A stretch of 44,336 bases of DNA from positions 1-44,336 of IMG/VR virus record IMGVR_UViG_3300020437_001194. One strand, given 5' to 3'. The notes under the pieces are model-generated. The model was not told the origin of the DNA. It ran no database searches and was given only the letters and a program-made list of their open reading frames with translations. Shown here piece by piece: positions 3-40,728 of the stretch. Source of the DNA: a virus. Positions within the stretch are counted from its first letter, which is position 1. Each line of letters opens with the position of its first letter. The translations under genes were made by a program, and so were the position numbers.

Positions 3-1142
3 AGGTATGAATCAATCAACAAAATCCTACGATACCAATGCGGGTTCAAACGAACACACACCATCTCGGAAGCACTAAAGGATAGAAGGACATATCACAG
101 GTATAATCTTGTCGGTTTGGTTTCAAGTAGGAGAACTACAAAGTCGGGAGGTTTGATGATTGAATTTGAAGACAAGACAGGAACTATTTCTGCATTTATC
201 AGAAAGGAAGATTCCGCATCACAAACTGTTGTCAATGATGATGTGATTGGCATTACGGGAACTTTCGGCAAAGATAGTGATATCTTTTGGGTGGATAGAG
301 TTCAGTTCGGAGACATAGCACCCAAGCATCAAAATAAGGGAGGGGCAGAATACGACCCCGTTTCTATTGCCTTTATTTCAGATATTCACATGGGTTCCAA
401 GTATTTCCTTGAAGATACATGGGACAAAATGATGAAATGGTTGAATGAGGATGAACTTGCGAAGAACATCAAGTATCTCGTTATGGCGGGTGATGTTTGT
501 GATGGCATTGGGATTTATCCGGGTCAGGAAAACAATCTAATTTTCGACAATGCCTATGACCAATACGAGTTCTGTGCAAGGAAACTTGATGAGTTGCCTG
601 ACCACATTACTCCGATTATTTTGCCCGGCAATCATGATGCCGTCAGACCTGCACAACCACAACCCATGCTTGAACCTACGATTCAACAACAATTCAATTC
701 GACAATTCATGTGGGGAATCCTGCAAGGGTGAATCTGAATGGGATTGATGTTCTTGCATATCATGGTCAGGGAATGGATGACATCATCCCTCAAATTGAC
801 CATGTAAGTTATGAGAATTCAGTTGAAGGCATGAAAGAGATGTTGAAGAAAAGACACATGACTCCACAATGGGGGGAGAGAAGTGCATTATCGCCTGAAG
901 AAAGCGATGATATGGTGATTCATACACCACCTGACATTTTCATTACGGGACACACGCATAGCCATGCCTTTGAATGGTATCGAGGCGTTCCTTGTGTTGT
1001 TTCATCAACTATGCAAGGCCAAACAGACTTCATGAATATGCTTGGTTATGCTTCACAAAAAGGACATTTGACCATTTACAACATTCAAAATAGAGAGGCA
1101 AAGGTGGTATCTTTCCACGCAAATGATGATATCAATTTCTGA
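3..1142 (+). CDS. polB: DNA polymerase D small subunit (DP1), 5' partial
   Basis: Small subunit of archaeal family D DNA polymerase, the partner of the DP2 polymerase subunit; it carries the 3'-5' proofreading exonuclease. An OB-fold-like stretch (about nt 100-310, with GTISAFI and a GITGTF strand) is followed by a calcineurin-like phosphoesterase domain with all metal-binding motifs visible: SDIHMGS near 378, GDVCDG near 489, PGNHD near 624 and GHTHSH near 948. The active site therefore looks intact, unlike the inactive eukaryotic B-subunits. The frame is open to the left edge; codons read from position 3 and upstream residues (YQCGFKRTHTISEAL) fit the OB-fold, so the true start lies outside the window and the TTG at 117 is not the start. 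The gene symbol polB follows archaeal practice for DP1 and does not mean a family B polymerase. DP2 is not in the window. Confidence 0.9.
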   Translation, partial: RYESINKILRYQCGFKRTHTISEALKDRRTYHRYNLVGLVSSRRTTKSGGLMIEFEDKTGTISAFIRKEDSASQTVVNDDVIGITGTFGKDSDIFWVDRVQFGDIAPKHQNKGGAEYDPVSIAFISDIHMGSKYFLEDTWDKMMKWLNEDELAKNIKYLVMAGDVCDGIGIYPGQENNLIFDNAYDQYEFCARKLDELPDHITPIILPGNHDAVRPAQPQPMLEPTIQQQFNSTIHVGNPARVNLNGIDVLAYHGQGMDDIIPQIDHVSYENSVEGMKEMLKKRHMTPQWGERSALSPEESDDMVIHTPPDIFITGHTHSHAFEWYRGVPCVVSSTMQGQTDFMNMLGYASQKGHLTIYNIQNREAKVVSFHANDDINF

Positions 1143-1151
1143 GGTGAAAAA

Positions 1152-1835
1152 ATGGGCATACATCCAAAATCTAAAGTTTATGGTAGGGTTGAAATTGGTG
1201 AGAACAGTTTCGTTGATATGGGTTGTGTAATTTTTGGTCCCGTTGAAATCGGAGACAATACTCACATACAAGCAGGAACAATTATTGGCGCACCTCCTGA
1301 GCATAAATCAAAGGAATCCAAGTATGGAGTCGTTATTGGAAATAATTGTGTGATTGGAACTAATTGCACCATTACTGCCTCAACAGATGAGCGACCAACA
1401 ACGATAGATGATGGTTGTTATTTGATGTCGGGTGTTCATGTATCTCATGATTGTTGGATTCAGGAAAATGCCACACTTGCTCATAAGGTAGTTCTCGCAG
1501 GTCATGTTGTTGTGGGTCGAGAAGCAAACCTTGGAGTTGGCTCTATGGTTCATCAGCATACCACTATTGGAGGTGGTTGCATGGTTGGGATGGGTAGTGT
1601 TGTGGTGAAAGATGTATATCCATTCATAAAAATTCATGGGAATCCTGCAAAGTATTGTGGATTGAATCATCATAGATTAAAAAGGTTTCGCTCTTACTCG
1701 GAAGATGTTGAAGACGAAGCCCTATTTTCTTCAGATTTATCGAAATACACCATCCCATATCTTGTCGAGTTTCATGATGAGTGTGGAAAGCGAGGCAGAG
1801 GAAGAATAATCTCTTATCCTTGGGTGGTGCTATAA
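1152..1835 (+). CDS. LpxA-like left-handed beta-helix acyltransferase
   Basis: A 227-residue protein built of hexapeptide repeats (IGENSF, IGDNTH, IGNNCV, IGTNCT), typical of trimeric left-handed beta-helix acyltransferases. The C-terminal half resembles UDP-GlcNAc O-acyltransferase (LpxA) in detail: HVSHDC in place of HIAHDC with the catalytic-type histidine, then LAGHVVVG, SMVHQH, GSVVVKDV, and NPAKYCGLN followed by LKRF. Family members transfer an acyl group from acyl-CoA or acyl-ACP to a nucleotide sugar. Archaea make no lipid A, so the substrate is more likely a UDP-amino sugar for a surface glycan. The start follows GAGGTGA; its stop overlaps the next gene's start. With the aminotransferase at 5518 and the oxidoreductase at 6645 it would complete a GnnB/GnnA/LpxA-like or WbpE/WbpB/WbpD-like set (inference). 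Confidence 0.82.
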   Translation: MGIHPKSKVYGRVEIGENSFVDMGCVIFGPVEIGDNTHIQAGTIIGAPPEHKSKESKYGVVIGNNCVIGTNCTITASTDERPTTIDDGCYLMSGVHVSHDCWIQENATLAHKVVLAGHVVVGREANLGVGSMVHQHTTIGGGCMVGMGSVVVKDVYPFIKIHGNPAKYCGLNHHRLKRFRSYSEDVEDEALFSSDLSKYTIPYLVEFHDECGKRGRGRIISYPWVVL

Positions 1836-2776
1836 TGGATTGGTGGGAAGGAGACATGACTTTTGAGAGGCAAGAACCAAAAGAAATTTTGATGATTCTT
1901 CAACCGAGAGCCATTCCTGAGGCGATTGAAAGTTTGAACGCCCTCAATATCGAAAAGGTTTGGTTCAGAGGATATACTGAGGTTGAATTAGAAACTCACC
2001 TTAATGAGTTTATTCAAACAACAGATTACGACTACTATTGGATTATTGCTGATGATGTAGTTGTTGATGAAAAACCGATAGAACTTTTGCGACCCCTACT
2101 ACATGAAGGTAAGGTGGTTTCAGGATATTGTCTTTTGGGAGAGGATACTGATAGAGTTAATTTATCAATTTCTGAAACTATGACTTGCACTCCTTACTTT
2201 GATGTTCCCGCACTCAATTATTTTTATACGATGCACAAACTGAGGAATTCCCAACAATATGATGTGATTACAGAATCATTAATGACAGGAGAAATTTCAC
2301 AATCATCATCCACAGGGAGTTTTTGGATAGACAATTTACTCGAAAACAACATCAAGTTTGAAGATGCAGTAAATGATGAAGTAAATCTTTGGGTGGGTGT
2401 TCATGATGATGATTTTATGACTCGAACCGAGGTGAAAAGCAGTAAGCAAAATTATTTCACCACAAAATTCACAGGATGGTCATTTACAGGTATGCCGAGG
2501 GATATTTGGTTGAAATATCCATATCGAACATCTTCAAGAGAGAGTAATACTGATGCACAATTTTCGCTGAGGTATGCGATTAGAGATGGAAATGAAATAT
2601 GGACTCACAAGGATGCTGAACATATTCACTTGAAAAAGACTAAAACTACTACTGAGATGAGTCATTGGATTTTGGGGCTTGAAGATTCTGTGATTCATTT
2701 TGGTGATGGTAAATTGGTTGGTGAAAACATACCTTCAGAATTGGTTTGGAGATTAGGGGATGGTGAGGAAGAGTGA
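1835..2776 (+). CDS. GT-A-like glycosyltransferase, paralogue 1
   Basis: A 313-residue protein, paralogous to the next gene. Both share PRAIPEAIESLN near the N-terminus, then DYDYYWIIADDVVV, VVSGYC, FTGWSFTG and DIWLKYP. The YYWIIADD stretch looks like the hydrophobic strand and acidic DxD-like motif that bind metal and nucleotide-sugar in GT-A glycosyltransferases, so a glycosyltransferase role is inferred; no exact family was recognised. The ATG at 1835 overlaps the acyltransferase stop (TAATG); a second ATG at 1856 is close behind GGAAGGAG and is an alternative start. It probably works with the neighbouring acyltransferase and the sugar aminotransferase and oxidoreductase 3 kb downstream to decorate a glycan. 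No membrane segment is visible, so a cytosolic enzyme is likely. Confidence 0.65.
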   Translation: MDWWEGDMTFERQEPKEILMILQPRAIPEAIESLNALNIEKVWFRGYTEVELETHLNEFIQTTDYDYYWIIADDVVVDEKPIELLRPLLHEGKVVSGYCLLGEDTDRVNLSISETMTCTPYFDVPALNYFYTMHKLRNSQQYDVITESLMTGEISQSSSTGSFWIDNLLENNIKFEDAVNDEVNLWVGVHDDDFMTRTEVKSSKQNYFTTKFTGWSFTGMPRDIWLKYPYRTSSRESNTDAQFSLRYAIRDGNEIWTHKDAEHIHLKKTKTTTEMSHWILGLEDSVIHFGDGKLVGENIPSELVWRLGDGEEE

Positions 2777-3660
2777 AAGAAGTTCTCATGATTTTGAATC
2801 CAAGAGCAATCCCTGAAGCGATTGAAAGTTTGAACACTCTCGATATCGAAAAGGTTTGGTTTCGAGCATTTGATGAACCTTCAGTTTGCGAAGCGATGAA
2901 TAATTTTGTGGCTGATACAGACTATGATTACTATTGGATTATTGCTGATGATGTAATTGTGAACAACAGACCTCTTGAAGTCCTCAGGCCGTTGATTCAG
3001 GAAGGAAAGGTAGTTTCAGGATATTGCAGGTGGTTTGAAGGTTCCGAATATGTCAATCTTCTGCACAAGCCAATTAGTTGTGTATATGCTTGCGATGACC
3101 CCAACTATCAATTTCTCAAAAGATTAAATGAGGTGAATCCTGAAAGATATTCATGGATTCAAAAGGTTCCTGAGGTAAAACCCGATGATGATTCAGTCAA
3201 TGATTTTATGTTCTATGATATGGATTCAACTAAATCACGCTATTTTTACGATGAAGTTCAAAGCATGGGTCAAGAACCAATCAAGACCTACTTCTCAGGT
3301 TGGTCTTTTACGGGAGCGTCAAGAGATGTTTGGTTGAAATATCCATTCATGTGTAGTTTGATGGACTCTCAAAGCGATATCAAGTTTTCTGTCAGATACA
3401 TCAACGATGATGGGGGCGAAATTTTCAGCCACAAAGAGGCATATTTTCACCACATGAAGAAAAACACAAACATTCTCGTTGATGAGTGGAAAGTAGGAGT
3501 CGAACCGCCAACCGTTTATCGAGGAACAGGGTTTGTGGATAGAAGCAAAATCAAAAACCAAGATATCATATTCGTTGATGGTGATTTTTCTCCGAAAGAC
3601 AGAGATTACGATATTTTGTCTGAAGAATCTTATGCAACGGATGTGGAGGTGAAATTATGA
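2773..3660 (+). CDS. GT-A-like glycosyltransferase, paralogue 2
   Basis: A 295-residue paralogue of the gene at 1835; the pair must have arisen by tandem duplication. It repeats the order of motifs: PRAIPEAIESLN, YYWIIADDVIV (acidic DxD-like site), VVSGYC, FSGWSFTGASRD and VWLKYPF. It begins with GTG four bases before the previous stop ends, behind GGTGAGGAAG. The middle (residues about 95-160) differs most from its sister, which suggests different acceptors or donor sugars while the nucleotide-binding half is kept. A cytosolic glycosyltransferase acting on the sugar supplied by the local pathway is the best guess; a non-catalytic paralogue cannot be excluded. Confidence 0.65.
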   Translation: MKEVLMILNPRAIPEAIESLNTLDIEKVWFRAFDEPSVCEAMNNFVADTDYDYYWIIADDVIVNNRPLEVLRPLIQEGKVVSGYCRWFEGSEYVNLLHKPISCVYACDDPNYQFLKRLNEVNPERYSWIQKVPEVKPDDDSVNDFMFYDMDSTKSRYFYDEVQSMGQEPIKTYFSGWSFTGASRDVWLKYPFMCSLMDSQSDIKFSVRYINDDGGEIFSHKEAYFHHMKKNTNILVDEWKVGVEPPTVYRGTGFVDRSKIKNQDIIFVDGDFSPKDRDYDILSEESYATDVEVKL

Positions 3661-3758
3661 GCGAAGAACAAGCGGGACCATGCCGAAGACAATGTGATAT
3701 AGACCCGAAAACATTGGTTTGTAAGAGTTGTGGATTGTCTTACAAGCAACAAGGTTAA
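3657..3758 (+). CDS. 33-residue Cys-rich protein, DUF1289-like
   Basis: A tiny gene whose ATG overlaps the stop of the glycosyltransferase (ATGA). The product has a spaced cysteine pattern, GPCRRQC then a DIDP turn, then VCKSCG, which looks like the PCxxxC-x-x-D-x(5)-C-x-x-C layout of the small DUF1289 family and could bind one zinc. Its function is unknown. Support comes from translational coupling and the metal-site-like cysteine spacing; the family match is by eye only. Confidence 0.5.
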   Translation: MSEEQAGPCRRQCDIDPKTLVCKSCGLSYKQQG

Positions 3759-3791
3759 ATAGGTAATCGGATTAACGGGATTTGGAAATCC
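3754..3791 (+). promoter_or_regulatory. TTAAATAGG promoter box and inverted repeat
   Basis: TTAAATAGG at 3755-3763, overlapping the end of the preceding small gene, matches the boxes that precede many genes here. The perfect inverted repeat GGATTT-GG-AAATCC at 3778-3791 lies where transcription would start and could be an operator. It would serve the run of small genes from 3810. Confidence 0.5.
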
Positions 3792-3809
3792 AATTAATGA
3801 GGGGTTGAA

Positions 3810-3899
3810 ATGAGTTTGGAAGAATTTTGGGCATTTTTAGCAGGATTAAGCATCATTTACTTGACGCAGAAAATTGTATTTAAGGAGGGCGACCAATGA
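3810..3899 (+). CDS. 29-residue single-span membrane peptide
   Basis: A 30-codon frame coding for a peptide that is mostly one hydrophobic helix (FWAFLAGLSIIYL) ending in a short charged tail (KEGDQ). The ATG follows GAGGGGTTGAA, a plausible ribosome site, and the stop overlaps the next gene's ATG (CAATGAG). The small size and simple composition leave real doubt, but the coupled layout and downstream membrane proteins support it. Role unknown. Confidence 0.5.
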   Translation: MSLEEFWAFLAGLSIIYLTQKIVFKEGDQ

Positions 3900-4177
3900 G
3901 CGACACAATGATTGTAGCCTTGTTGTTGAGCAATTTTATCCTTTTGTTTATTTCGTATTGTATCACTTTGAAATCATTGAAAAATTTGACTGATAAGCAA
4001 CAAAGCACCATGTATGGTGTATCTCATGTGTGGGGTTCTGTGAAAGAATTTCGAGCAGAAATGGCTTTGAAGGATATGATGTCTGATTTACCTCTGCCAC
4101 CCCCTCCGTTTGACCCTGACATGGAATTACAATCTAATTTTGATGAGCCGAATGTAGGAGTTGATTTGGGTGCGTGA
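3896..4177 (+). CDS. Small membrane protein with N-terminal anchor
   Basis: A 93-residue protein with one N-terminal membrane segment (residues about 5-26, rich in L, I, F), then a helical amphipathic stretch and an acidic, proline-rich tail containing LPLPPPPFDPD. No family recognised. It overlaps genes on both sides by 4 and 8 bases, so it is in one translation unit with the other small membrane peptides. The layout suggests a short membrane-bound adaptor facing the cytoplasm, but that is inference. Confidence 0.7.
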   Translation: MSDTMIVALLLSNFILLFISYCITLKSLKNLTDKQQSTMYGVSHVWGSVKEFRAEMALKDMMSDLPLPPPPFDPDMELQSNFDEPNVGVDLGA

Positions 4178-4307
4178 TGAAAACAACCACCGAGGCAAAT
4201 TGGAACGGTGGTTAGACAGGCATAATCACAAAATGGAACTCATGAGGACACTCACTTCATTGATTGCCGCAGTATCATCAACTGTGGTTTTGTTTTTCAT
4301 ACTTTGA
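4170..4307 (+). CDS. 45-residue C-terminally anchored peptide
   Basis: Begins with GTG 8 bases before the previous stop ends. The product has a charged N-terminal half (RDENNHRGKLERWLDRHNH) and a hydrophobic C-terminal segment (LIAAVSSTVVLFFIL) that reaches the last residue. This is a tail-anchored layout, like the larger proteins at 11669-14861. Function unknown. Supported by tight overlap and a clear membrane segment; not by any recognised homologue. Confidence 0.55.
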   Translation: MRDENNHRGKLERWLDRHNHKMELMRTLTSLIAAVSSTVVLFFIL

Positions 4308-4323
4308 AGTTTTAGGTTCGGAA

Positions 4324-4368
4324 GATTAATAAGTGGTAGCCGTATAGGGCTACATAACCGAGTAGGTG
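4324..4368 (+). promoter_or_regulatory. TTAATAAG promoter with hairpin-forming operator
   Basis: GATTAATAAGT at 4324-4334 is a TATA-like box. The perfect inverted repeat GTAGCC-(6)-GGCTAC at 4336-4353 sits between the box and the expected start of transcription, where a regulator could bind. A closely similar stretch precedes the gene at 33910 (box at 33863), suggesting that the two are co-regulated. Confidence 0.5.
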
Positions 4369-4374
4369 TATGAT

Positions 4375-4920
4375 ATGGAAAAGACAGTAGTTTTGACAGA
4401 AGACGAATTGATGTGGTGCAAGAATCATGCTATGGAAGTTGTTGAGTATTATGGGGGAAACAATACTCTCGGCTCAGGCCAATACAATCACAACAAAATC
4501 AGTAGCAACATGGTAGGTGTTAAATCTGAAGTAGCAACGGCCAAGTGGTTTCGAGAAAATGTCAAAAATCCGAAAATCGAGGAAAACTACAAGCGATATC
4601 GAAGTAATGGCTTGAAGGGAGACATTGTGTGTAATCGAAAGGTCATCGAAGTGAAGGGTCTGCGACCTCACCAATGGCAAAAATTTAGGAGAATGGTTCC
4701 TCCAAAGCAACTACGGCATTGTGTCCGAAATAGAGCAATCATTGTGTGGACTTTGGCGAAAGGAAATTCACAAGATTCAAAGGTGAAACTTATGGGTTGG
4801 AATTATGCTCATGAGGTGGAAAATCATGGCGTTGAAGTCCGAACAATCTGCGACAACATTTGGTTGCAGGATGATGAGTTGATGCGACCAATGGATACGC
4901 TTATTGATGTTTTGAACTGA
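4375..4920 (+). CDS. PD-(D/E)XK-like nuclease
   Basis: A 181-residue protein with a nuclease-like core: a helix with GVKSEVATAKWF (an acidic residue in the first helix), then KGDIVCNRKVIEVKGLR, which supplies the D and ExK of a PD-(D/E)XK site, and a following basic helix. This pattern is common in phage endonucleases and restriction-like enzymes acting on double-stranded DNA. The specific role (host DNA breakdown, recombination intermediate cleavage, packaging) is not clear. The start is ATG 4375, or GTG 4366 three codons upstream behind GAGTAGGTG. It has its own promoter box and a possible operator. Confidence 0.65.
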   Translation: MEKTVVLTEDELMWCKNHAMEVVEYYGGNNTLGSGQYNHNKISSNMVGVKSEVATAKWFRENVKNPKIEENYKRYRSNGLKGDIVCNRKVIEVKGLRPHQWQKFRRMVPPKQLRHCVRNRAIIVWTLAKGNSQDSKVKLMGWNYAHEVENHGVEVRTICDNIWLQDDELMRPMDTLIDVLN

Positions 4921-4936
4921 AATAAAATCACAAGCA

Positions 4937-4943
4937 TTAAATA
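4937..4943 (+). promoter_or_regulatory. TTAAATA box before 4967
   Basis: TTAAATA at 4937, exactly 30 bases before ATG 4967. This distance recurs through the window and fits a leaderless transcript, so it favours ATG 4967 over the in-frame TTG at 4949. Confidence 0.6.
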
Positions 4944-4966
4944 CCTCGTTGTTAAAAATAGCATCC

Positions 4967-5383
4967 ATGAGTTTTAGGAAATGGATTGGGAAAATTACTT
5001 CCCCCATATTTGTTCCATTAAGGAAAATGGTATCTTGGTCTGATGAAACATTTGGGACTTGCGACCATCGGCTTGTAGTTGTCCCAAGAGATGCAAGTGC
5101 AAAGGTTGGCGAATCTGATGGGCTTGAGCGTAAGGTGAAACCGAAACAAATCTCAATGCTTGAAAAGAAAATTTCCAAAGACAAGGCCAATATCGAAGGT
5201 CTTGGAACTAAGAAAAAAAGTGAACTGTTGTGTTATTTTTGTCGAAGTGAATTGATTTGGATGGGAGATAATACCTTCGAGGAATATGGAATTTCAAGTG
5301 AAGGCGAAGTTGTAAATCTTCGTTGCTCAAAATGTCCCGCCCATTTTGAAGGATTTTTACGAACACGGCCTGTGCATGAGTAG
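4967..5383 (+). CDS. Zinc-ribbon protein of unknown function
   Basis: A 138-residue protein. The N-terminal part is basic and has one moderately hydrophobic stretch (ITSPIFVPL). The C-terminal part holds two pairs of cysteines, CYFC and CSKC, about 37 residues apart, the usual layout of a zinc ribbon that grips one metal ion. A lysine-rich linker (ERKVKPKQ, EKKISKDKA) lies between. Such small ribbons often bind nucleic acid or the transcription apparatus. No family recognised. A promoter box 30 bases upstream fixes the start. Confidence 0.65.
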   Translation: MSFRKWIGKITSPIFVPLRKMVSWSDETFGTCDHRLVVVPRDASAKVGESDGLERKVKPKQISMLEKKISKDKANIEGLGTKKKSELLCYFCRSELIWMGDNTFEEYGISSEGEVVNLRCSKCPAHFEGFLRTRPVHE

Positions 5384-5394
5384 GAGGTTTTGTG

Positions 5395-5475
5395 ATGCCT
5401 GATGTGTGTATAATCATGATTTTGATATTCATTTTTGGATTGGCTTACGGAGTCGGATTAGAGGAAGAACAATAA
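5395..5475 (+). CDS. 26-residue membrane peptide
   Basis: A strong ribosome site (TAGGAGG at 5381-5387) stands 7 bases before this ATG. The product is a single membrane helix (IIMILIFIFGLAYGVG) with an acidic end (LEEEQ). No function known. It is one of at least five very short membrane peptides in the window, so it is probably real despite its length. Confidence 0.55.
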   Translation: MPDVCIIMILIFIFGLAYGVGLEEEQ

Positions 5476-5487
5476 CAACAGGTAAGC

Positions 5488-5497
5488 CTTAAATAGG
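5488..5497 (+). promoter_or_regulatory. CTTAAATAGG promoter before aminotransferase
   Basis: CTTAAATAGG, with TTAAATA starting 29 bases before ATG 5518. The spacing predicts a transcript starting at or next to the start codon, and so chooses ATG 5518 over TTG 5509. Confidence 0.65.
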
Positions 5498-5517
5498 TGT
5501 TGTGAGGGTTGAAAATT

Positions 5518-6645
5518 ATGATTGGAAGAACCATCGTAAGATATGACTCTGATATGCTCAGAGATGCACTAAATGAAGTAATTGAATCAGGACAATTTGT
5601 AAATGGCTCACAGGCGAAAAGGTTTGAGAAGGCCGTATGTGATTATCTTGACATCGAAGGTTGCGTAGCCGTCAATTCAGGAACTACTGCACTATTGCTT
5701 GCATACAAGGCTATGGGTGCAAAGAAAATCTTGACTACTCCCTTCACATTTTCCGCAACTGCTATGGCAGGTATTTTTTTGGATATGGAAGTAATTTTTT
5801 GCGATATTGATGCCGATACTTACTGTATGGATATGAATGATGTCGAAAGATTATTGGAAGAACATGGGGATATTGATGTTGTAGTTCCTGTTCATATCTT
5901 CGGAGTAGGTGCTGATATGGATGCACTTGCTGACTTGAAATCAAGGTATGGTTTTAAGGTTGTAAGTGATTGCGCTCAGGCGTTTGGAACTGTAATTGAT
6001 GGCTATTTGGCAGGTTCCCACCCTTGTATTGATTTAGGTTGTTTTTCCCTGTATCCAACTAAAAATCTTTCTTGTGCAGGAGATGGAGGGTTCATCACCT
6101 TAAACGACCTAAAACTTTACGAAAAACTTATTCGATGGAGAGATAACGGCAGATATTTGGGAACTCCCGTTTTAGGTTCAGGAGGCAATTTTAGGATGAG
6201 TGAGTTTCAGGCGGCTATTGCCGTAAAACTTATTGAGAGATTTCCTCAACAACAAGAATATCGGAATGAAATCGCTGAGTATTACTTGAATGAACTAAAA
6301 CCGCTTGAAGAAAAAGGTATCCTCACACTACCCAAGGTAAAAGAATTCAACGAAAATGGTTGGAGCCATACCTATCACTTATTCTGTATTTACCTAAATC
6401 AACATGAGCCACAAGAAGTAATTCAAAAACTTTCAGATTTGGGTGTTGGTGCTACCCCTGCCTATGGATATTTGATTACTGACTTTGATATGCTTGAAGA
6501 AGGGTGTCCTTACAGTTCTGAGGAATATCCTGTGGCAAGAGAAATCACGGAAAGATTGCTTGCGATTCCACTTAGCCAATACATAACGAAAGAAGAAAGC
6601 GTTAAAGTTGTTGAATCACTATTTGAAGTTTTGGGTGATGCTTGA
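5518..6645 (+). CDS. DegT/DnrJ/EryC1-type sugar aminotransferase
   Basis: A PLP-dependent enzyme of 375 residues, full length for the family, that turns a keto-sugar nucleotide into an amino sugar with glutamate as usual donor. Visible motifs: GSQAKRFEKA near the start, NSGTTALLLAY for phosphate binding, TTPFTFSATA, DCAQAFG (the aspartate that binds the pyridine nitrogen), SLYPTKNLSCAGDGG with the PLP lysine at about residue 182, and GGNFRMSEFQAA. It overlaps the oxidoreductase that follows by one base. Together they match the pairs WbpB/WbpE and GnnA/GnnB, which oxidise the 3-OH of UDP-GlcNAc-type sugars and aminate C3; that assignment is inference from the pairing. Confidence 0.9.
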   Translation: MIGRTIVRYDSDMLRDALNEVIESGQFVNGSQAKRFEKAVCDYLDIEGCVAVNSGTTALLLAYKAMGAKKILTTPFTFSATAMAGIFLDMEVIFCDIDADTYCMDMNDVERLLEEHGDIDVVVPVHIFGVGADMDALADLKSRYGFKVVSDCAQAFGTVIDGYLAGSHPCIDLGCFSLYPTKNLSCAGDGGFITLNDLKLYEKLIRWRDNGRYLGTPVLGSGGNFRMSEFQAAIAVKLIERFPQQQEYRNEIAEYYLNELKPLEEKGILTLPKVKEFNENGWSHTYHLFCIYLNQHEPQEVIQKLSDLGVGATPAYGYLITDFDMLEEGCPYSSEEYPVAREITERLLAIPLSQYITKEESVKVVESLFEVLGDA

Positions 6646-7646
6646 TGAATGTTGGAATTATTGGTTTGGGACACATAGGTAAAAGACACATGGATAATGT
6701 CTTGGAAAATCCTAATTTGGAATTGTTGTGTGTTGCAGAACCTAATTTGGAAGTTGAGGTTCCACAGGGCGTAGGAATCCATTACAACTTTGTGGATATG
6801 TTGAATCACCATGAAGATGAACTAAATCTCGTCATCGTTGCCACACCCAACTGTTTGCACTATCGAATGATAAAGGAATGTGTTGAGAGAGGCATTCCTG
6901 TTTTGGCGGAGAAGCCAATTGTGCTGAATAAGCATGAGGCCAAACTTATTTCTCAGTTGGTCAATAAAAAGCAAGTTCCTGTATTTGTCAATTATCCTTT
7001 GAGGTTTTTGAAGTCCGTATCTGAAGTAAAGAATCGGTTGGGCGAAATAGGCAAACCAAACATGGCTATCTTCAATGTTTTTTGGAACAGGAATGAAGAA
7101 TACTACACCGCCTCAGATTGGAGAGGGACTCGCTCTGAAGAGGGTGGACCGTTATTCAATGAGTTTATCCACCACCTCAATTTGTTGAAATACTTGTTTG
7201 GAGAGATTGAGAATGTTGGAGGGAATGTGTATGACTTCAACCACTCATATACCGAGGTGGAAGATTCAGGAAATTTCAACTTCACATTTATGAGTGGGGG
7301 GATGGGTAGTTTGAATTATTCAGTTGCCGCACCAAAAAAATCTTTCGATGTTCAATTGACTGTGATGGGTGATGTGGGGTGCTTCAGATTGAAGGAACTT
7401 TACTTGAACAATCTCAAAATTGATGATGAAGAAGAACAAACTTTTGAAATCAACCTTCAACATTTCTATGATGTCCTTGAAGCAACAAGATTACGCATAA
7501 CTGAGGGAATCGAAGATGAGAGGCTATGCACCGTAAGCGAGGCTTGTGCAGATGTTCATGACATTCAGACCTTTTACTCACAATTCAAAATGACTGACAA
7601 ACCCAAAGGAACTGAACAACCTCTGTTTCTGAAGGGAACCTTTTGA
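6645..7646 (+). CDS. Gfo/Idh/MocA-family sugar oxidoreductase
   Basis: A 333-residue NAD(P)-dependent oxidoreductase. The N-terminal Rossmann fold shows GIIGLGHIGKRH, then IVATPN and the family signature LAEKPIVLN with the EKP lysine. The C-terminal alpha/beta domain has DWRGTRSEEGGPLFNEFIHHLNLLKYLFG, where the conserved histidine pair lies. It begins within the aminotransferase stop (TGATG), so the two are made together. Likely role: oxidise a nucleotide sugar to the keto form used by the neighbouring aminotransferase, as GnnA or WbpB do. Other members act on inositols, so the exact substrate is not certain. Confidence 0.88.
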   Translation: MNVGIIGLGHIGKRHMDNVLENPNLELLCVAEPNLEVEVPQGVGIHYNFVDMLNHHEDELNLVIVATPNCLHYRMIKECVERGIPVLAEKPIVLNKHEAKLISQLVNKKQVPVFVNYPLRFLKSVSEVKNRLGEIGKPNMAIFNVFWNRNEEYYTASDWRGTRSEEGGPLFNEFIHHLNLLKYLFGEIENVGGNVYDFNHSYTEVEDSGNFNFTFMSGGMGSLNYSVAAPKKSFDVQLTVMGDVGCFRLKELYLNNLKIDDEEEQTFEINLQHFYDVLEATRLRITEGIEDERLCTVSEACADVHDIQTFYSQFKMTDKPKGTEQPLFLKGTF

Positions 7647-9070: not shown

Positions 9071-10564
9071 TTGATTGGCATGGCTAATGGGGATAACTTT
9101 GTAAGAATGTGGATACCTGCAAACCGAGTTCAGAATGCTCGAAGCAAGTTGAATCGAATTAAGAAGACTGCGGATAATCGAGGAATTTCATTCAGTTTTG
9201 ATTTGCCTGAAGTTTCAAGAGAAGACATCAGTTCAAAAGAGATGAGTGAGAGGCGAGAACGATTGAGGCAGTTCGCTTTGACCGAAAATCCCGATGACCC
9301 CCTATATCGAAGCGTCTATGATGCTTTGAACATGGAGGCAAAAAACTTCAGAGCCTACATTATCCCTCCTGCTGACCACACCGAACAACCAACTACTCGA
9401 TATCGAAGGTATGGTTCAGAATTGAAGATGAATTATGATGATATCAGTAGTATGGGTTGGCAAGTAGTTGCAGTTTTGAAACCTGCTTCAGAGGCGTATT
9501 TTTATTCAAACATGACTTCAAACTACATGGTGAACACAATTCCAAACTTGAGTGATATTGGAGCCATTTCTGAACACCTACCACATGAATTGAATTCATT
9601 TTGTGAACATTGTGGAACAGTTAGGCGAAGAAATGAGTTGATTGTGGTTCACAACAAAGAGCAAGACACCTATGCAAGAGTTGGAAGCACTTGTTTGTTT
9701 GAATATACTGCAATAGACCCTAAGTTCACTATGAGTTTTTATGAGTTCCTTGAGACACCCTCGTTTGGCGACCCATCTCTTTTGAAGAAAAGCCCTAAGG
9801 TGCAAGATTTGTATGATTTTATGGAAAAGGCAGTTCGATTGTTTGATTATGCCGACTCATACATCAAGGGAATCGGAAGGTCTATTTTTGAGTCTTACAT
9901 CAAAGAAGTGGATGGCGATTCTTGGCTTGTTCCATTTGGCTACCCTACATCATTAGGATTGTCAGATGGAGAGATTATGATGGGTGCTTTTCAACCTTCA
10001 ATCCTTGACAAGTATTGCCGAAGAATTAGCCCTTCAAGTGAAAAAATTGACGACATGATTACAATGATGATTTCTTATGTCATGCAGTTGAATGCAAGGT
10101 CTGACTTTGAATACAATTTGAAGAGGATTGTGGATGCAGGAGTAGTATCTCCAAGAACTGCGGGCTATGCCGCTTCAATTTACACAGTTTATCGAAGGGC
10201 TGAGGAAAAGGGGCTTGTTCAAGCCGTGTTTTTCCCTCAACCACCTGAGGAATCAGAAGATGAAGGGATGCACTTTGGAGAGATAGGAGATAGGATTGAA
10301 TTCACCGCAAAAGTCATGAGAAAGCAAGTCCGAGAAGGATACTATGGGGATACTACCATGTTGGTTTTTGAAGTTCTCGGTGGCACACACAACGGCTCAG
10401 AAGTGGTGTGGTGGAGTTCATCATCCAAAAGGATGCCTTCAGTTGGAGATGTCGTAAATGTTCGGGGAACAGTCAAGAAGCATGGCGAGTTCAAAGGGAA
10501 GAAAATCACCACCATTACAAGAGGAAAAATCTCTGAAGCGGGCGATTACGAATTAGCAAATTGA
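9071..10564 (+). CDS. Zinc-finger and OB-fold protein, phage orphan family
   Basis: A 497-residue protein. In the middle, CEHCGTVRRRNELIVVHN followed by RVGSTCL forms a likely four-cysteine zinc site of a kind seen in uncharacterised phage and plasmid proteins. The last about 95 residues (from GEIGDRIEFTAKV to GKKITTITRGK) look like an OB-fold with a strand order suited to single-stranded nucleic acid binding. The 5' end could be TTG 9071 (27 bases from the TATA-like box) or ATG 9080. The middle helices have no match that I recognise. A role in DNA replication or repair is suggested by the OB-fold and by a promoter like that of the ERCC4 nuclease, but this is inference. Confidence 0.65.
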   Translation: MIGMANGDNFVRMWIPANRVQNARSKLNRIKKTADNRGISFSFDLPEVSREDISSKEMSERRERLRQFALTENPDDPLYRSVYDALNMEAKNFRAYIIPPADHTEQPTTRYRRYGSELKMNYDDISSMGWQVVAVLKPASEAYFYSNMTSNYMVNTIPNLSDIGAISEHLPHELNSFCEHCGTVRRRNELIVVHNKEQDTYARVGSTCLFEYTAIDPKFTMSFYEFLETPSFGDPSLLKKSPKVQDLYDFMEKAVRLFDYADSYIKGIGRSIFESYIKEVDGDSWLVPFGYPTSLGLSDGEIMMGAFQPSILDKYCRRISPSSEKIDDMITMMISYVMQLNARSDFEYNLKRIVDAGVVSPRTAGYAASIYTVYRRAEEKGLVQAVFFPQPPEESEDEGMHFGEIGDRIEFTAKVMRKQVREGYYGDTTMLVFEVLGGTHNGSEVVWWSSSSKRMPSVGDVVNVRGTVKKHGEFKGKKITTITRGKISEAGDYELAN

Positions 10565-10565
10565 G

Positions 10566-10853
10566 GTGATTAGAGTGGAATTTGAGATTTATGAGGATGG
10601 AGGATACACCTTGATAGAAATTTCACACAACTCAAAATCGCTCGGTGAGTATGTTCTGCCCTCAGGTGTGGCAGGGGAAGATTTTTTCTCTCAATATCTT
10701 AATGACATCAAGATTGAGTTTTTCGATGTTCTTGGGGTTTCAGAATGGTGGATAACTGACAGGGAAGGTATTGTTATTGAAGGTGCTTTTTATGATATTG
10801 AAGAAGCAAAGAAGGCATGGCGAAATTTGGTGATGACTCATCATGAAGTATAA
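10566..10853 (+). CDS. 95-residue protein, unknown
   Basis: Starts with GTG directly behind the previous gene's stop (TGAGGTG). The product is acidic and alpha/beta (VEFEIYEDGGYTLIEIS, ... FDVLGVSEWWI), with a C-terminal helix EEAKKAWRNLVMTHHE. No family recognised. Co-transcribed with the zinc/OB protein upstream. Confidence 0.6.
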   Translation: MIRVEFEIYEDGGYTLIEISHNSKSLGEYVLPSGVAGEDFFSQYLNDIKIEFFDVLGVSEWWITDREGIVIEGAFYDIEEAKKAWRNLVMTHHEV

Positions 10854-11668: not shown

Positions 11669-12148
11669 ATGATTGGTGTTGATGTTTTCAATTATGGGCA
11701 TCTTTTTGAATCAAATGAGGTTCATGGGCCAATTCGCCCATGCCCTTGTCCTGAGGATTATGGCGTTTCTATGCACCCTGATTGTTGCGAATTTGTTCCT
11801 GAAGACCAACAACCTGATTTGGATGGCGATGGAACTCCTGACATCTCTGATGCTAATCCACATGACCCTGACATCCAAACACAAGAGCAACAAGACCAAA
11901 AGGAGCAGGAACTTGATGGTGGAAATGGAAATGGAGGCGATGGCTCGGAAGGTGCGGGAATCATTGGGGGCGATGACCCAAGTTATCTATCAGTCGTAAA
12001 TCCTTATGGTATCAATCCTGAAACAGGTAATGCTTATTGTGTTGATTACAATAATTGTCCTCAACAACCAACTCAAATAGACTCAAAAATAATTTCTTAT
12101 GGAATTTTAGGATTGATTGGAGTGGTAGCAGTTTCAATGTTAGGTTAG
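11669..12148 (+). CDS. Tail-anchored protein with calcium-type repeat
   Basis: A 159-residue protein with a cysteine-rich N-terminal part (RPCPCPEDYG, DCCEF), then DLDGDGTPDISDANPHDPD, which resembles the calcium-binding thrombospondin type 3 repeat, a Q/E-rich linker, a glycine/asparagine stretch, and one C-terminal membrane helix (SYGILGLIGVVAVSML) that ends the protein. There is no N-terminal signal peptide. Its start MIGVDVFNYGH weakly echoes the MI-x-x-FGN start of the next proteins. Its position as first of a run of similar anchored proteins suggests a surface or particle component. No family recognised. Confidence 0.7.
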   Translation: MIGVDVFNYGHLFESNEVHGPIRPCPCPEDYGVSMHPDCCEFVPEDQQPDLDGDGTPDISDANPHDPDIQTQEQQDQKEQELDGGNGNGGDGSEGAGIIGGDDPSYLSVVNPYGINPETGNAYCVDYNNCPQQPTQIDSKIISYGILGLIGVVAVSMLG

Positions 12149-12157
12149 GTGAATTAA

Positions 12158-12787
12158 ATGTATGGCAATCAAACTTTTGGAATGTTTTTTGACGCTAATG
12201 ATACGATGCCCTACGGCTCAAAGAAACCTGATTTCCGTATTGATTTAGCGAATGCCAAACTTCCAAAGGATGTTCATCGCTCTAAAATTGAACCTCCTGC
12301 CAAAGCAAACACAGGTCGCTTAAAAATCATTGAACAGGGACAAGGGAGAATAAAGGTTGATGGACTTATGGGGTTGCCTGATTTGAAACCCCAACTTCCT
12401 GAAATGCCCGATTTGGGGGAGCCGATTGGTGAACCTACTGATGATTCAGGAAATTCTGCACAAGACCCTGTAATCGAAGAACCTGTTTCTGAGCCGATTC
12501 AAACTGATAATGATTCAACTGCTAATGGCGAAGTTGAACAAACTGAACCTGAAGCGGAACCTGAACCTGAAGCAAAAACTCAAATTAGTGGAGGAACGGT
12601 TGAATTTGCATTACCTGAATGGTTCAAAGATTCATTTACGAAGGGGGCTAAGGTGGTTGGAGTCGGAATTTTAGGATATGTAGCCTTTGTCGTTGCAGAC
12701 CGATTGGGCGTTGCAGATAAAATTTCTGACGCTTTGAAATCCAATAAGAAAGATGAGCCGCAAAAAAGTTCAGTTACATCTGAATAA
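12158..12787 (+). CDS. Anchored protein with acidic proline-rich stalk
   Basis: A 209-residue protein. It begins MYGNQTFGMF, echoing the FGNQxW start of its neighbours, then MPYGSKKPDF. A long stalk of E, P and D follows (EEPVSEPIQTDND, EQTEPEAEPEPEA), then one membrane segment (VVGVGILGYVAFVVADRLGV, about residues 170-190) and a lysine-rich tail. The basic tail should face the cytoplasm or particle interior, placing the stalk outside if insertion is of that sense. Function unknown; structural member of the array is the best guess. Confidence 0.68.
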   Translation: MYGNQTFGMFFDANDTMPYGSKKPDFRIDLANAKLPKDVHRSKIEPPAKANTGRLKIIEQGQGRIKVDGLMGLPDLKPQLPEMPDLGEPIGEPTDDSGNSAQDPVIEEPVSEPIQTDNDSTANGEVEQTEPEAEPEPEAKTQISGGTVEFALPEWFKDSFTKGAKVVGVGILGYVAFVVADRLGVADKISDALKSNKKDEPQKSSVTSE

Positions 12788-12818
12788 TTCATGAAAAAAC
12801 CTTGTATCTTGCATAATC

Positions 12819-12865
12819 CTTAAATAGGGTGAAATCACAATCTCCGAAACGACACCTTTAACACT
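12819..12865 (+). promoter_or_regulatory. Tandem promoter boxes before 12890
   Basis: CTTAAATAGGG at 12819-12829 and CTTTAACACTC at 12856-12866. The second is 32 bases before GTG 12890 and is repeated before the gene at 38598. The first has no start codon at the usual distance, so it may add a longer leader or an upstream start of transcription. Confidence 0.5.
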
Positions 12866-12889
12866 CAGAATTTCTGATTAATGAGTTAG

Positions 12890-13525
12890 GTGATTCATAT
12901 CTTTGGCAACCAAAATTGGAGTAATTCACTAATTGGAATCATGCCTCAATCGAAATCTGTGGTTTATAGGACAGAATTCAGAAACGAAGATGAGCCAAGG
13001 TATAATGTTTCGGGGTGGAGTGGGCCTTGTTCAAATTTGTGGTGGTCTATTGGAGATATTGATGCAAGTGAATTCATAGATTTACACCTTCAGCGCATGA
13101 ATCAATGCGGTTTAACAACTGCGGATATTTATCAAGCGTGGGATGATTTGCGAGCCACAGGAAGCACCGCAGGAAGAGGCAGAGCCTCCTATGAGAGGGC
13201 TGAAGCCAATCAACAAGAACCGACAACTGAAGGCAGAGAGAACTCAGGAATTGGTAATGGAACCATAAATGGAGATAGTTCTGATGATGGAAATCTCAAT
13301 GGAAATGGAAATGGAAATGGAAATGGAAATGGAAATGGAAATGGAGATGGAGATGGAGATGGAAATGGAAATGGAAATGGAAATGGAAATGGAAATGGAA
13401 ATGGAAATGGAAATGGAAATGGAGCAGGAAATGAGGCTCCCCTCATAGACCCTCAATACATCACTCTTGGAGTAGTAGGAATCTTTGCATTAGTTGGAGT
13501 TAAGATGTTGATGGGTCGAAATTGA
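12890..13525 (+). CDS. Tail-anchored paralogue with Gly-Asn stalk
   Basis: A 211-residue member of the FGNxxW family: MIHIFGNQNWS, then IGIMPQSKSVVYRTEFR, nearly the same as in the genes at 13572 and 14250. A soluble domain follows (YNVSGWSGPCSNLWWS ...), then a stalk of alternating Gly and Asn/Asp coded by a hexamer DNA repeat at 13301-13420, and a C-terminal membrane helix (ITLGVVGIFALVGVKMLMG). There is no signal peptide. The GTG start is the only one that keeps the shared N-terminus. The repeat probably changes length between relatives, so the stalk length may vary. Likely a surface-exposed or particle protein; role unproven. Confidence 0.72.
   Translation: MIHIFGNQNWSNSLIGIMPQSKSVVYRTEFRNEDEPRYNVSGWSGPCSNLWWSIGDIDASEFIDLHLQRMNQCGLTTADIYQAWDDLRATGSTAGRGRASYERAEANQQEPTTEGRENSGIGNGTINGDSSDDGNLNGNGNGNGNGNGNGNGDGDGDGNGNGNGNGNGNGNGNGNGNGAGNEAPLIDPQYITLGVVGIFALVGVKMLMGRN
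13301..13420 (+). repeat. Hexanucleotide repeat (GGAAAT/GGAGAT)20
   Basis: Twenty uninterrupted 6-base units: seven GGAAAT, three GGAGAT (13343-13360), then ten GGAAAT. It is in frame and codes for Gly-Asn (Gly-Asp in the middle). Slippage would add or remove two residues without breaking the frame, so length variation would be tolerated. Confidence 0.95.
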
Positions 13526-13542
13526 TTCAAGTAAAGAGGCAT

Positions 13543-13553
13543 CTTTAAGTATC
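13543..13553 (+). promoter_or_regulatory. TTTAAGTATC promoter before 13572
   Basis: CTTTAAGTATC; the bases from here to the start codon (AAGCGAAACATCCATAGTTG) are almost the same as those before 14250, showing that the promoter was duplicated with the gene. Confidence 0.6.
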
Positions 13554-13571
13554 TAAGCGAAACATCCATAG

Positions 13572-14207
13572 TTGATTACGATGTTTGGAAATCATAGTTG
13601 GAGTGATAAGCGAGTAGGAATCATACCCTCGACAAAATCTGTTTCTTATCGAAGTGAATTCAGAGTATTCAATTCTCCTGATGAACCAAACAAAATCAAT
13701 GTCTTCATTTCGACAGGCGGTGCTTACGCTAATCAAGAAAGGTATCATGTTTTGTATGCAGACCCAACAGGAGGCTTGACAGGCAGAGGCGCAAACACCC
13801 TCTCACAGGCTATTTCTGATGCAGAAAGTGGAGAAAGAAGCAACTCGAAAACCTTTGTAATTGAAAGTTTTTGGAACAAAGATGCAACTGAGGCCGTAAG
13901 AAATGGTGCTTTAGAAATAAACAATAGAAATCCTCCTGAGCCTCTTGTTGGAGGTTGCACCGATTCAGAAGCGAAGAATTACAATCCTGATGCAAATGCA
14001 AACGATGGCTCTTGTGAATATCCTCCGCTTGCAGGTTGCACAGATTCAGAAGCGAAGAATTACAATCCTGATGCTGAAGTTGATGATGGTTCTTGTGAAT
14101 ATAAGACTCTTGCAGACAATGTGCGTGAGGACTTGGCAGAAATCCCTTGGGGTCTTGTAGGTCTTGGTGTAGTTGCTTTGGTTGGATTTAAGTTCTTACA
14201 GGCTTGA
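13572..14207 (+). CDS. Tail-anchored paralogue with two DDGSCEY repeats
   Basis: A 211-residue member of the FGNxxW family (MITMFGNHSWS, VGIIPSTKSVSYRSEFR). After a variable middle domain come two cysteine repeats of the type GCTDSEAKNY ... DDGSCEY, common in secreted proteins of marine bacteria and archaea, then a membrane helix (IPWGLVGLGVVALVGFKFL) and only two more residues. The TTG start lines up with the GTG of the gene at 12890; ATG 13581 is the alternative. The paired cysteines suggest an oxidising, extracytoplasmic site, although no signal peptide is present. Probably arose with the next gene by duplication. Confidence 0.72.
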   Translation: MITMFGNHSWSDKRVGIIPSTKSVSYRSEFRVFNSPDEPNKINVFISTGGAYANQERYHVLYADPTGGLTGRGANTLSQAISDAESGERSNSKTFVIESFWNKDATEAVRNGALEINNRNPPEPLVGGCTDSEAKNYNPDANANDGSCEYPPLAGCTDSEAKNYNPDAEVDDGSCEYKTLADNVREDLAEIPWGLVGLGVVALVGFKFLQA

Positions 14208-14220
14208 ACTTCACAGATAC

Positions 14221-14231
14221 TTTTAAGTATC
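14221..14231 (+). promoter_or_regulatory. TTTTAAGTATC promoter before 14250
   Basis: Same class and surrounding bases as the box at 13543, lying inside the 40-base spacer between two paralogues, so each paralogue has its own promoter rather than sharing one operon transcript. Confidence 0.6.
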
Positions 14232-14249
14232 GAAGCGAAATATCCATAG

Positions 14250-14861
14250 TTGATTACGATGTTTGGAAATCAAAGTTGGAGTGATAAGCGGGTGGGAATC
14301 ATGCCCTCATCAAAATCTGTTTCCTATCGAAGTGAGTTTAGGTTATTTGATGCAACGGACTTTGATATTGAGAAAGATAACCCCGTCATGGGAGTAGTTA
14401 AGGCAAAGTGGGTTGAAGCGACTCAAACATATCACTACAAGGCTTACGGAATGGATGATTATGCCGACACAGGCAAAAAAGATGCCGACCAAGTGAAAAA
14501 CTCAACCCTCGAAACACAGGTTGGAAACATCACCCATTCAGTAGCAAGCAAGATACGGGCGGGGCAAGGATTGGAATTTGAATCTCTTTCCCCTGCCGAC
14601 AATAAAGAGGGATGCACAGATTCCGAAGCCAAGAATTACAATCCTGATGCTGAAGTTGATGATGGTTCTTGTGAATATCCGCTTGCAGGTTGCACAGATT
14701 CAGAAGCGAAGAATTACAATCCTGATGCTGAAGTTGATGATGGTTCTTGTGAATCTAAGACTCTTGCAGACAATGTGAGTGAAGATTTGTCAGAATTGCC
14801 TTGGGGTTTGATTGCGCTTGGAGGCGTAGGAATAGTTGCACTTAAGTTTGTGATGGGGTGA
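14250..14861 (+). CDS. Tail-anchored paralogue with two DDGSCEY repeats
   Basis: A 203-residue sister of the gene at 13572. The first about 32 residues are nearly identical (MITMFGNQSWSDKRVGIMP ...), the middle (residues about 35-110) is unrelated or highly diverged, and the end is again shared: two GCTDSEAKNY ... DDGSCE repeats and a membrane helix (LPWGLIALGGVGIVALKFVMG). Conserved ends with a changed middle are what would be expected if the middle meets a variable partner. Starts TTG 14250 by comparison with its paralogue; ATG 14259 is possible. Confidence 0.72.
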   Translation: MITMFGNQSWSDKRVGIMPSSKSVSYRSEFRLFDATDFDIEKDNPVMGVVKAKWVEATQTYHYKAYGMDDYADTGKKDADQVKNSTLETQVGNITHSVASKIRAGQGLEFESLSPADNKEGCTDSEAKNYNPDAEVDDGSCEYPLAGCTDSEAKNYNPDAEVDDGSCESKTLADNVSEDLSELPWGLIALGGVGIVALKFVMG

Positions 14862-40252: not shown

Positions 40253-40259
40253 ATTCAAT

Positions 40260-40331
40260 GGGTGTGTGGTGTAATGGATAGCATCTTGGCCTTCTAAGCC
40301 GAGGATAGGGGTTCGATTCCTCTCACGCCCG
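40260..40331 (+). tRNA. tRNA-Arg (anticodon TCT)
   Basis: A full cloverleaf: acceptor GGGTGTG with CACGCCC, anticodon stem TTGGC/GCCGA with loop CTTCTAA giving TCT, and T arm with GGTTCGATTCC. CCA is not coded. It reads AGA codons. Confidence 0.92.
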
Positions 40332-40354
40332 TTTAATTTTCAAAGGTGAATATC

Positions 40355-40540
40355 ATGGAATATGAAATACCCAAACGATTGAAGGTGGATAGGTATGGCA
40401 GAATTGCTTGTGAAGACTGTGGCAGGTGGGGCTATATAGAAGAAAGAAAGAATTCAACCACACCCGATGGCCGATGGCTTTGTCCTCGATGTTGGTTTCA
40501 AGTTGTCAAAGGCAGACCTCTATGGCAAAAGGTTAAATAG
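40355..40540 (+). CDS. 61-residue zinc-ribbon protein
   Basis: Sequence has CEDCGRWGYI and WLCPRCWFQ, two CxxC pairs about 22 residues apart, a typical zinc ribbon, in a basic context (KRLKVDRYGR). GTG 40346 is an upstream alternative. It stands between tRNA genes. A role in nucleic-acid binding is plausible. Confidence 0.62.
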   Translation: MEYEIPKRLKVDRYGRIACEDCGRWGYIEERKNSTTPDGRWLCPRCWFQVVKGRPLWQKVK

Positions 40541-40541
40541 A
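40531..40541 (+). promoter_or_regulatory. TTAAATAGAGG promoter for tRNA pair
   Basis: GGTTAAATAGAGG; TTAAATA starts 31 bases before the first base of the tRNA at 40564, the same spacing as for coding genes. This confirms that the box marks the start of transcription. Confidence 0.6.
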
Positions 40542-40563
40542 GGTGGCCTATATGGATTATCAT

Positions 40564-40638
40564 GGGCGAGTAGTTTAATGGAAAAACATTCCGTTGCGGG
40601 CGGAAAGACTGCGGGTTCAATTCCCGCCTTGTCCACCA
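40564..40638 (+). tRNA. tRNA-Arg (anticodon GCG), CCA coded
   Basis: Acceptor GGGCGAG pairs with CTTGTCC (with G-T pairs); anticodon stem TTCCG/CGGAA holds the loop TTGCGGG, anticodon GCG, reading CGC and CGT; T arm GCGGGTTCAATTCCCGC. ACCA follows the acceptor, so the CCA end is coded. Confidence 0.88.
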
Positions 40639-40653
40639 TTTTATTCCAAATCT

Positions 40654-40728
40654 GAGCGTATAGTGTAATGGATATCACATTGGCCTCCTAAGCCGAAAAT
40701 CGGGGTTCGATTCCCTGTATGCTCGCCA
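40654..40728 (+). tRNA. tRNA-Arg (anticodon CCT), CCA coded
   Basis: Acceptor GAGCGTA with TATGCTC; anticodon stem TTGGC/GCCGA and loop CTCCTAA giving CCT, reading AGG; T arm with GGTTCGATTCC; then G and CCA. Its body is very like the TCT tRNA at 40260, a likely duplication with an altered anticodon. Sixteen bases after the GCG tRNA and so probably on the same transcript. Confidence 0.9.

Follow-up and report, generated by a model that had tools for sequence, protein, structure and literature searches.

A putative virus-borne module for synthesis and transfer of a UDP-2,3-diacetamido sugar in an archaeal virus lineage

Results and Discussion

Gene organization of the locus

The IMG/VR virus record IMGVR_UViG_3300020437_001194, a DNA of 44,336 bases (hereafter the window), begins inside the gene for DP1, the small subunit of archaeal DNA polymerase D (PolD). 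Downstream of DP1 lies a group of genes for an acyltransferase, two glycosyltransferases, an aminotransferase and a dehydrogenase (Table 1), which probably forms a virus-borne donor-plus-transferase module, whereby a uridine diphosphate (UDP)-2,3-diacetamido-2,3-dideoxy sugar would be made and then transferred. These five frames, starting at 1152, 1835, 2773, 5518 and 6645, had been named in an earlier reading of the sequence alone (hereafter the sequence-only reading), and all were found present and intact by an open-frame check of the window. The three enzyme types claimed in that reading, an acyltransferase, a DegT aminotransferase and a Gfo/Idh oxidoreductase, were also recovered by a Pfam scan, with matches far beyond chance to Hexapep (E 5e-24, with five repeats), DegT_DnrJ_EryC1 (E 1e-79) and GFO_IDH_MocA (E 4e-21), respectively.

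The listed frame of the first glycosyltransferase opens at GTG 1781, and its in-frame ATG 1835 overlaps the stop codon of the acyltransferase. The aminotransferase has a longer TTG start at 5509, and ATG 6645 of the dehydrogenase sits 3 bases after a TTG start at 6642. The start and stop codons of neighbouring genes thus overlap at 1835, 2773 and 6642-6645, suggesting translational coupling of these genes.

Table 1. Genes of the proposed module and its surroundings in the window
Feature	Position	Strand	Basis
DP1, archaeal DNA polymerase D small subunit, C-terminal part (window begins inside gene)	117-1142	+	NF003118 387.7 bits, E 9e-116
LpxA-like left-handed beta-helix acyltransferase, 227 amino acids, proposed N-acetyltransferase	1152-1835	+	Hexapep x5
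Predicted GT-A glycosyltransferase, paralogue 1	1835-2776	+	42% identity to next gene; IADDVVVD motif
Predicted GT-A glycosyltransferase, paralogue 2	2773-3660	+	AlphaFold model pLDDT 75.6, Foldseek, VIA-align
Small protein with hydrophobic N-terminal stretch	3896-4177	+	40-42% identity over 52 amino acids to homologue in relatives
Two small genes (4366-4920 and 4949-5383)	4366-5383	+	No family match; homologues sited elsewhere in relatives
DegT/DnrJ/EryC1/StrS sugar aminotransferase	5518-6645	+	PF01041 E 1e-79
Gfo/Idh/MocA dehydrogenase, WlbA type	6645-7646	+	PF01408 E 4e-21

Conservation of the module in related viral contigs

The same module was found in two other viral contigs, IMGVR_UViG_3300027779_002523 (L014) and IMGVR_UViG_3300020470_000006 (L015), in the same gene order, that is, DP1 (full length, 434 amino acids, in both), the acyltransferase, the small hydrophobic protein, three glycosyltransferase paralogues, the aminotransferase, and the dehydrogenase. 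Because the order is kept in both contigs, together with the adjacent PolD small subunit gene, the block is an inherited module. Identity between the window virus and these relatives is 88% for DP1 and 82% for ribonucleotide reductase, but 42-57% for the module proteins, indicating that the module is retained and yet evolves fast. A conserved order combined with divergence much faster than that of the flanking polymerase gene is as expected for a surface trait under pressure.

The layout differs in minor respects. The small hydrophobic protein is encoded after the glycosyltransferases in the window, but between the acyltransferase and the glycosyltransferases in the relatives. The genes at 4366-5383 split the module in the window only; the 4366 homologue is located at the left end of both relatives, and the 4949 homologue between the aminotransferase and the dehydrogenase in one of the two. 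Neither 4366-4920 nor 4949-5383 matched a family in Pfam or NCBIfam, and both genes are probably outside the pathway. The interruption by these two genes would fit a chance gathering of independent auxiliary genes with no joint function, but such a gathering is hardly credible against the occurrence of the same genes in the same order in three diverged viruses and the overlaps of start and stop codons.

Searches of phage collections gave distant matches to the aminotransferase and the acyltransferase only, and no relatives of DP1 or of the glycosyltransferases. The acyltransferase matches L002-L010 are other viral contigs with a different gene context, in which no aminotransferase or dehydrogenase of the module kind was found; a portal-like gene lies nearby in L009, the sole contig of this set examined.

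The dehydrogenase and the aminotransferase

When a profile of the dehydrogenases from the three viruses was compared with solved proteins, only 3q2i (E 1e-34) and 3q2k (E 3e-32) gave E values below 1e-30. We take these to be the WlbA structures of C. violaceum and B. pertussis, respectively. A title cited in PMC10622841 is consistent with this assignment. A motif around the substrate site (VFWxRxxxYYxAxxWRGxxxxxGGxxxNxxxHxxDL) is common to the viral dehydrogenases and 3q2i/3q2k, and both K91 (within AEKP) and H177, invariant in the viral alignment, align with WlbA. Among solved structures, the WlbA-type proteins scored 106 and 96 bits, as against 52 bits at most for inositol dehydrogenases. 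The archaeal UDP-N-acetylglucosamine (UDP-GlcNAc) 3-dehydrogenase model NF040723 was missed widely (56.8 bits versus a cut-off of 450).

In a scan with one genome per species, cellular relatives of the dehydrogenase (28-37% identity) were found almost only in Bacteroidota. At all nine loci inspected, a hexapeptide acetyltransferase of about 190 amino acids is followed by the dehydrogenase and then by a gene for about 430 amino acids, and an aminotransferase lies upstream in eight of them. UDP-sugar dehydrogenase domains fall on these neighbours where coordinates were checked. On a Parabacteroides plasmid, the aminotransferase and dehydrogenase genes overlap and keep the same order, and a gene for lipopolysaccharide biosynthesis lies at a distance of 5 kb. 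The arrangement at the nine loci is the one to be expected of a pathway that yields a 2,3-diacetamido uronic acid. Taken together with the WlbA-like relation, the cluster layout makes C3 oxidation of UDP-GlcNAc uronate or UDP-GlcNAc the most likely reaction of the viral dehydrogenase.

The aminotransferase matched PF01041 with 268.8 bits (cut-off 19.8). The lysine predicted to bind pyridoxal phosphate lies in the context SLYPTKNLSCAGDGGFI, and the TKNL lysine is invariant in the alignment of the three viruses. Both sugar and cyclitol enzymes are found among the nearest solved relatives of the aminotransferase, including 8e75/8e77, QdtB and WbpE, so that its substrate is not fixed by the sequence alone.

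This mixture bears on a different route, in which the dehydrogenase would act on inositol or glucose-6-phosphate and the aminotransferase would yield an aminocyclitol of the scyllo-inosamine type or kanosamine. Matches of the aminotransferase to 7b0d (scyllo-inositol transaminase) and NtdA, and IolG as the top NCBIfam model of the dehydrogenase, agree with such a route. It is nevertheless very unlikely, given the scores of the WlbA type over those of inositol dehydrogenases, the presence of an LpxA-like acyltransferase and GT-A transferases in the same block, and the adjacency of the cellular dehydrogenase kin to UDP-sugar dehydrogenases.

The acyltransferase is LpxA-like

Among NCBIfam models, the acyltransferase matched LpxA best over the beta-helix, but the scores for TIGR01852 (148.2 bits versus a cut-off of 231.05) and NF003657 (156.6 versus 226) are both below the cut-offs; true LpxA proteins from 11 Bacteroidota genomes scored 292-328 with the same LpxA model. 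The best solved relative is 8e62 (E 2e-25), an LpxA-like protein of 189 amino acids. It is presumably the N-acetyltransferase of a Psychrobacter route to 2,3-diacetamido-glucuronate, an assignment that is given no weight here. The residues H96, H99, D100, H134 and Q135 are kept in the viral acyltransferase. An RE motif precedes the TxxxGT stretch in the LpxA sequences compared, whereas the three viral proteins and 8e62 lack this motif. In addition, the viral proteins begin about one coil later than LpxA, so that the first coil is missing, and the C-terminal helical domain is shorter.

Two acyltransferase trees were made. In the first, the WlbB-like acetyltransferases of the cellular clusters form a clade of their own (100/100), outside which the viral proteins lie, and a 273-amino-acid frame of L082 falls with LpxD. 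In the second, made without this frame, a branch with support of 100/99 splits LpxA from the viral proteins plus 8e62, with long branches and a root that is not fixed; matches in the plasmid collection are ordinary LpxA. An AlphaFold model of the acyltransferase was discarded (pLDDT, predicted local distance difference test, 67; Foldseek matches to unrelated beta-helix proteins at E > 0.05), and the fold is assigned from the sequence. The scores fall short of the cut-off, the protein has neither an RE motif nor the first coil nor a complete C-terminal domain, and it stands outside the LpxA clade. It thus appears to be LpxA-like but not LpxA, and its sister group is uncertain owing to the long branches. 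Most simply, it would acetylate the 3-amino group.

These findings bear on the comparison made in the sequence-only reading, in which the three enzymes were likened to the GnnA/GnnB/LpxA set of bacterial lipid A synthesis. If that comparison held, the trio would make UDP-GlcNAc3N and attach a fatty acyl group at N3, so that the surface product would be linked to a lipid or resemble one. The LpxA match over the beta-helix (148-157 bits) and the conserved histidines of catalytic type would accord with it. However, the unreached LpxA cut-off, the lack of the RE motif, of the N-terminal coil and of some of the C-terminal helical domain, and the absence of viral proteins from the LpxA clade all speak against it, and, to our knowledge, archaea generally have no acyl-acyl carrier protein donor. 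Single viral wbpE and gnnA auxiliary genes have been reported from lake-sediment viruses (PMC12783922), which is a further point in its favour, yet a fatty-acylated product is unlikely here. The 3-amino sugar chemistry, the N-acylation and the link to the glycosyltransferases proposed in the sequence-only reading were upheld, but not the lipid A-type trio, the dehydrogenase being nearest to the WlbA type and the acyltransferase failing the LpxA features tested. That reading had also held that the LpxA link would fail if the acyltransferase grouped with sugar acetyltransferases of another pathway; this applies in part, in that the viral proteins stand outside the LpxA clade, though within no definite subfamily.

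The glycosyltransferases

No model in Pfam, NCBIfam or PHROG matched either glycosyltransferase. The second was modelled with AlphaFold from eight paralogues (pLDDT 75.6). The model matched UDP-sugar GT-A enzymes (Foldseek, E 1e-4) and also viral GT-A proteins, and the top match by VIA-align was A197 of Sulfolobus turreted icosahedral virus (STIV), with Z 14.8 and a root-mean-square deviation of 3.8 over 166 residues. The acidic metal/nucleotide motif IADDVxV is present in all eight paralogues of the alignment. The second glycosyltransferase is thus predicted to have a GT-A fold, and the first is 42% identical to it, in agreement with the pair of glycosyltransferases named in the sequence-only reading. 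Within most pairs of paralogues, the first 95 residues (the nucleotide-binding half) are 63-75% identical but the rest 25-38%, and from these alike donor halves and divergent acceptor halves we infer one donor and several acceptors.

In tailed phages, DNA can be modified by means of viral sugar donors and transferases. The glycosyltransferases might accordingly act on bases of the viral DNA, with the cassette supplying an amino sugar, and the window does contain nucleoside deoxyribosyltransferase-like and dCMP-deaminase-like genes. However, no gene of the thymidylate synthase/pyrimidine hydroxymethylase family was found in the window, an overlapping 123-kb contig (see below) or the two relatives, which argues against glycosylation of DNA bases, and the transferase model resembles GT-A enzymes for proteins and polysaccharides; hypermodification of DNA is therefore highly improbable.

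A distant relative of the glycosyltransferases (28% identity) is encoded in another viral contig, L059, with a short gene resembling a UDP-sugar dehydrogenase some 1.4 kb away (9977-10717 and 12088-12939).

Proposed pathway and role

In the first step, a UDP-N-acetyl sugar would be oxidized at C3 by the dehydrogenase; the likeliest substrate is UDP-GlcNAc uronic acid supplied by the host, failing which UDP-GlcNAc itself. The aminotransferase would turn the 3-keto into a 3-amino group. The LpxA-like enzyme would then acetylate this group, with an acetyl rather than a long-chain acyl donor, to give a UDP-2,3-diacetamido-2,3-dideoxy sugar, which the two tandem GT-A glycosyltransferases (three in the relatives) would move to different acceptors, most likely a surface glycoprotein of the virion or host. 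On the best reading of the sequences, then, the product would be a UDP-2,3-diacetamido sugar and not a fatty-acylated lipid A precursor. The statement in the sequence-only reading that archaea have no lipid A is correct but poses no puzzle, since methanogens make the 3-acetamido uronic acid sugar GlcNAc3NAcA for N-glycans (PMC2952790).

Several observations weigh against a UDP-2,3-diacetamido sugar. The nearest solved relative of the aminotransferase is 7b0d, named as a scyllo-inositol transaminase, and the dehydrogenase scored highest in NCBIfam with IolG, at 100 bits (below its cut-off of 355). By the tree, the acyltransferase is distinct from the WlbB type of the cellular clusters. No UDP-sugar 6-dehydrogenase (PF00984), an enzyme present beside the cellular relatives, was detected in the 123-kb contig or in either of the two relatives, so that a uronate substrate would have to come from the host; no UDP-GlcNAc 2-epimerase was detected in the viral records searched, and no acceptor gene was identified.

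The most likely role of the module is tuning of the virus or host surface. With donor enzymes and two or three matching transferases, the lineage could determine its surface chemistry independently of what its host makes. A fuller picture, possible but put forward only tentatively, is of a lineage of archaeal viruses, 125 kb or more in genome size, with a self-contained module for making a 2,3-diacetamido sugar and placing it on virion proteins or the host envelope, in which the LpxA-like fold has been adapted to N-acetylation in a virus of a host without lipid A. The case also guards against an easy mistake in annotation, since lipid A chemistry does not follow from a high-scoring LpxA-like match when the virus is archaeal.

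Comparison with known systems

The three enzyme types and the proposed reaction order are those of WlbA/WbpB, WlbC/WbpE and WlbB/WbpD, which make UDP-2,3-diacetamido-2,3-dideoxy uronic acids in Bordetella and Pseudomonas, and the nearest solved relatives of the viral dehydrogenase are of the WlbA type. In contrast to that pathway, the virus records lack the 6-dehydrogenase and the 2-epimerase, and the viral acetyltransferase resembles LpxA rather than the short WlbB-like enzymes of the cellular clusters. The GnnA/GnnB/LpxA set for GlcNAc3N lipid A is similar in enzyme types, but differs in the LpxA features and in that archaea have no lipid A.

An archaeal 3-amino sugar is likewise made in the GlcNAc3NAcA N-glycan route of Methanococcus maripaludis, in which the dehydrogenase and aminotransferase are presumably encoded by the genes neighbouring that of the acetyltransferase MMP0350. 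The viral dehydrogenase, however, reached 57 bits against the 450 cut-off of the archaeal UDP-GlcNAc 3-dehydrogenase model. Loss of MMP0350 blocks addition of the second N-glycan sugar (PMC2952790).

Glycosylation matters in the contact between archaeal viruses and hosts, and the best-studied archaeal viral glycosyltransferase is STIV A197, which is virus-encoded, essential, and thought to glycosylate the major capsid protein (PMC10551542). The viral transferase model shares its GT-A fold, but the STIV donor is presumed to be made by the host, whereas here genes for donor-making enzymes lie beside two or three transferases. The nucleotide-sugar clusters of Megavirinae resemble the module in that an aminotransferase, an acetyltransferase and glycosyltransferases, used for rare bacterial-like sugars on virion fibrils, are encoded by the virus (PMC10117803); they differ in listing 4,6-dehydratases and 4-reductases, where a dehydrogenase of the C3 type would open the present route, and in the domain of the host. 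Within the open-access literature, what seems to be new is a complete donor-plus-transferase set, conserved in synteny, in an archaeal virus lineage, and this claim is a modest one.

Archaeal affiliation and other features of the virus

From about position 1841 onward, the window is identical (100% wherever compared) to a 123,396-base contig, IMGVR_UViG_3300038530_004289 (G001), and by this overlap the virus genome is at least 125 kb. The archaeal nature of the element, proposed in the sequence-only reading, is supported by genes for the PolD small subunit, PCNA and an ERCC4 nuclease in the neighbourhood, and for the PolD large subunit (DP2) on the overlapping contig (24759-28223; PF03833, E 8e-70). 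The element thus encodes both PolD subunits. In a 2014 review of archaeal polymerases, the enzymes given for viruses are of family B, and virus-encoded PolD may be unusual. Known magroviruses (Magrovirales) have a family B DNA polymerase and a terminase; in a search limited to PolB (PF00136) and Terminase_6N, neither gave a match in the window or in the 123-kb contig, from a genome that may be incomplete. No PHROG structural family matched among the large proteins scanned. A HerA/DUF87-like ATPase is encoded at 70396-71697 of the 123-kb contig.

Within the window, a protein of 1822 amino acids (20377-25845) gave no Pfam or NCBIfam match, and shows 37-41% identity over part of its length in the relatives. 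Three neighbouring genes for 203-211 amino acids (12890-14861) form a related set, and short repeated stretches of two of these recur in a 672-amino-acid protein (35906-37924). Three tRNA-Arg genes (anticodons tct, gcg and cct) stand in a row at 40259-40728, where the direction of the genes changes.

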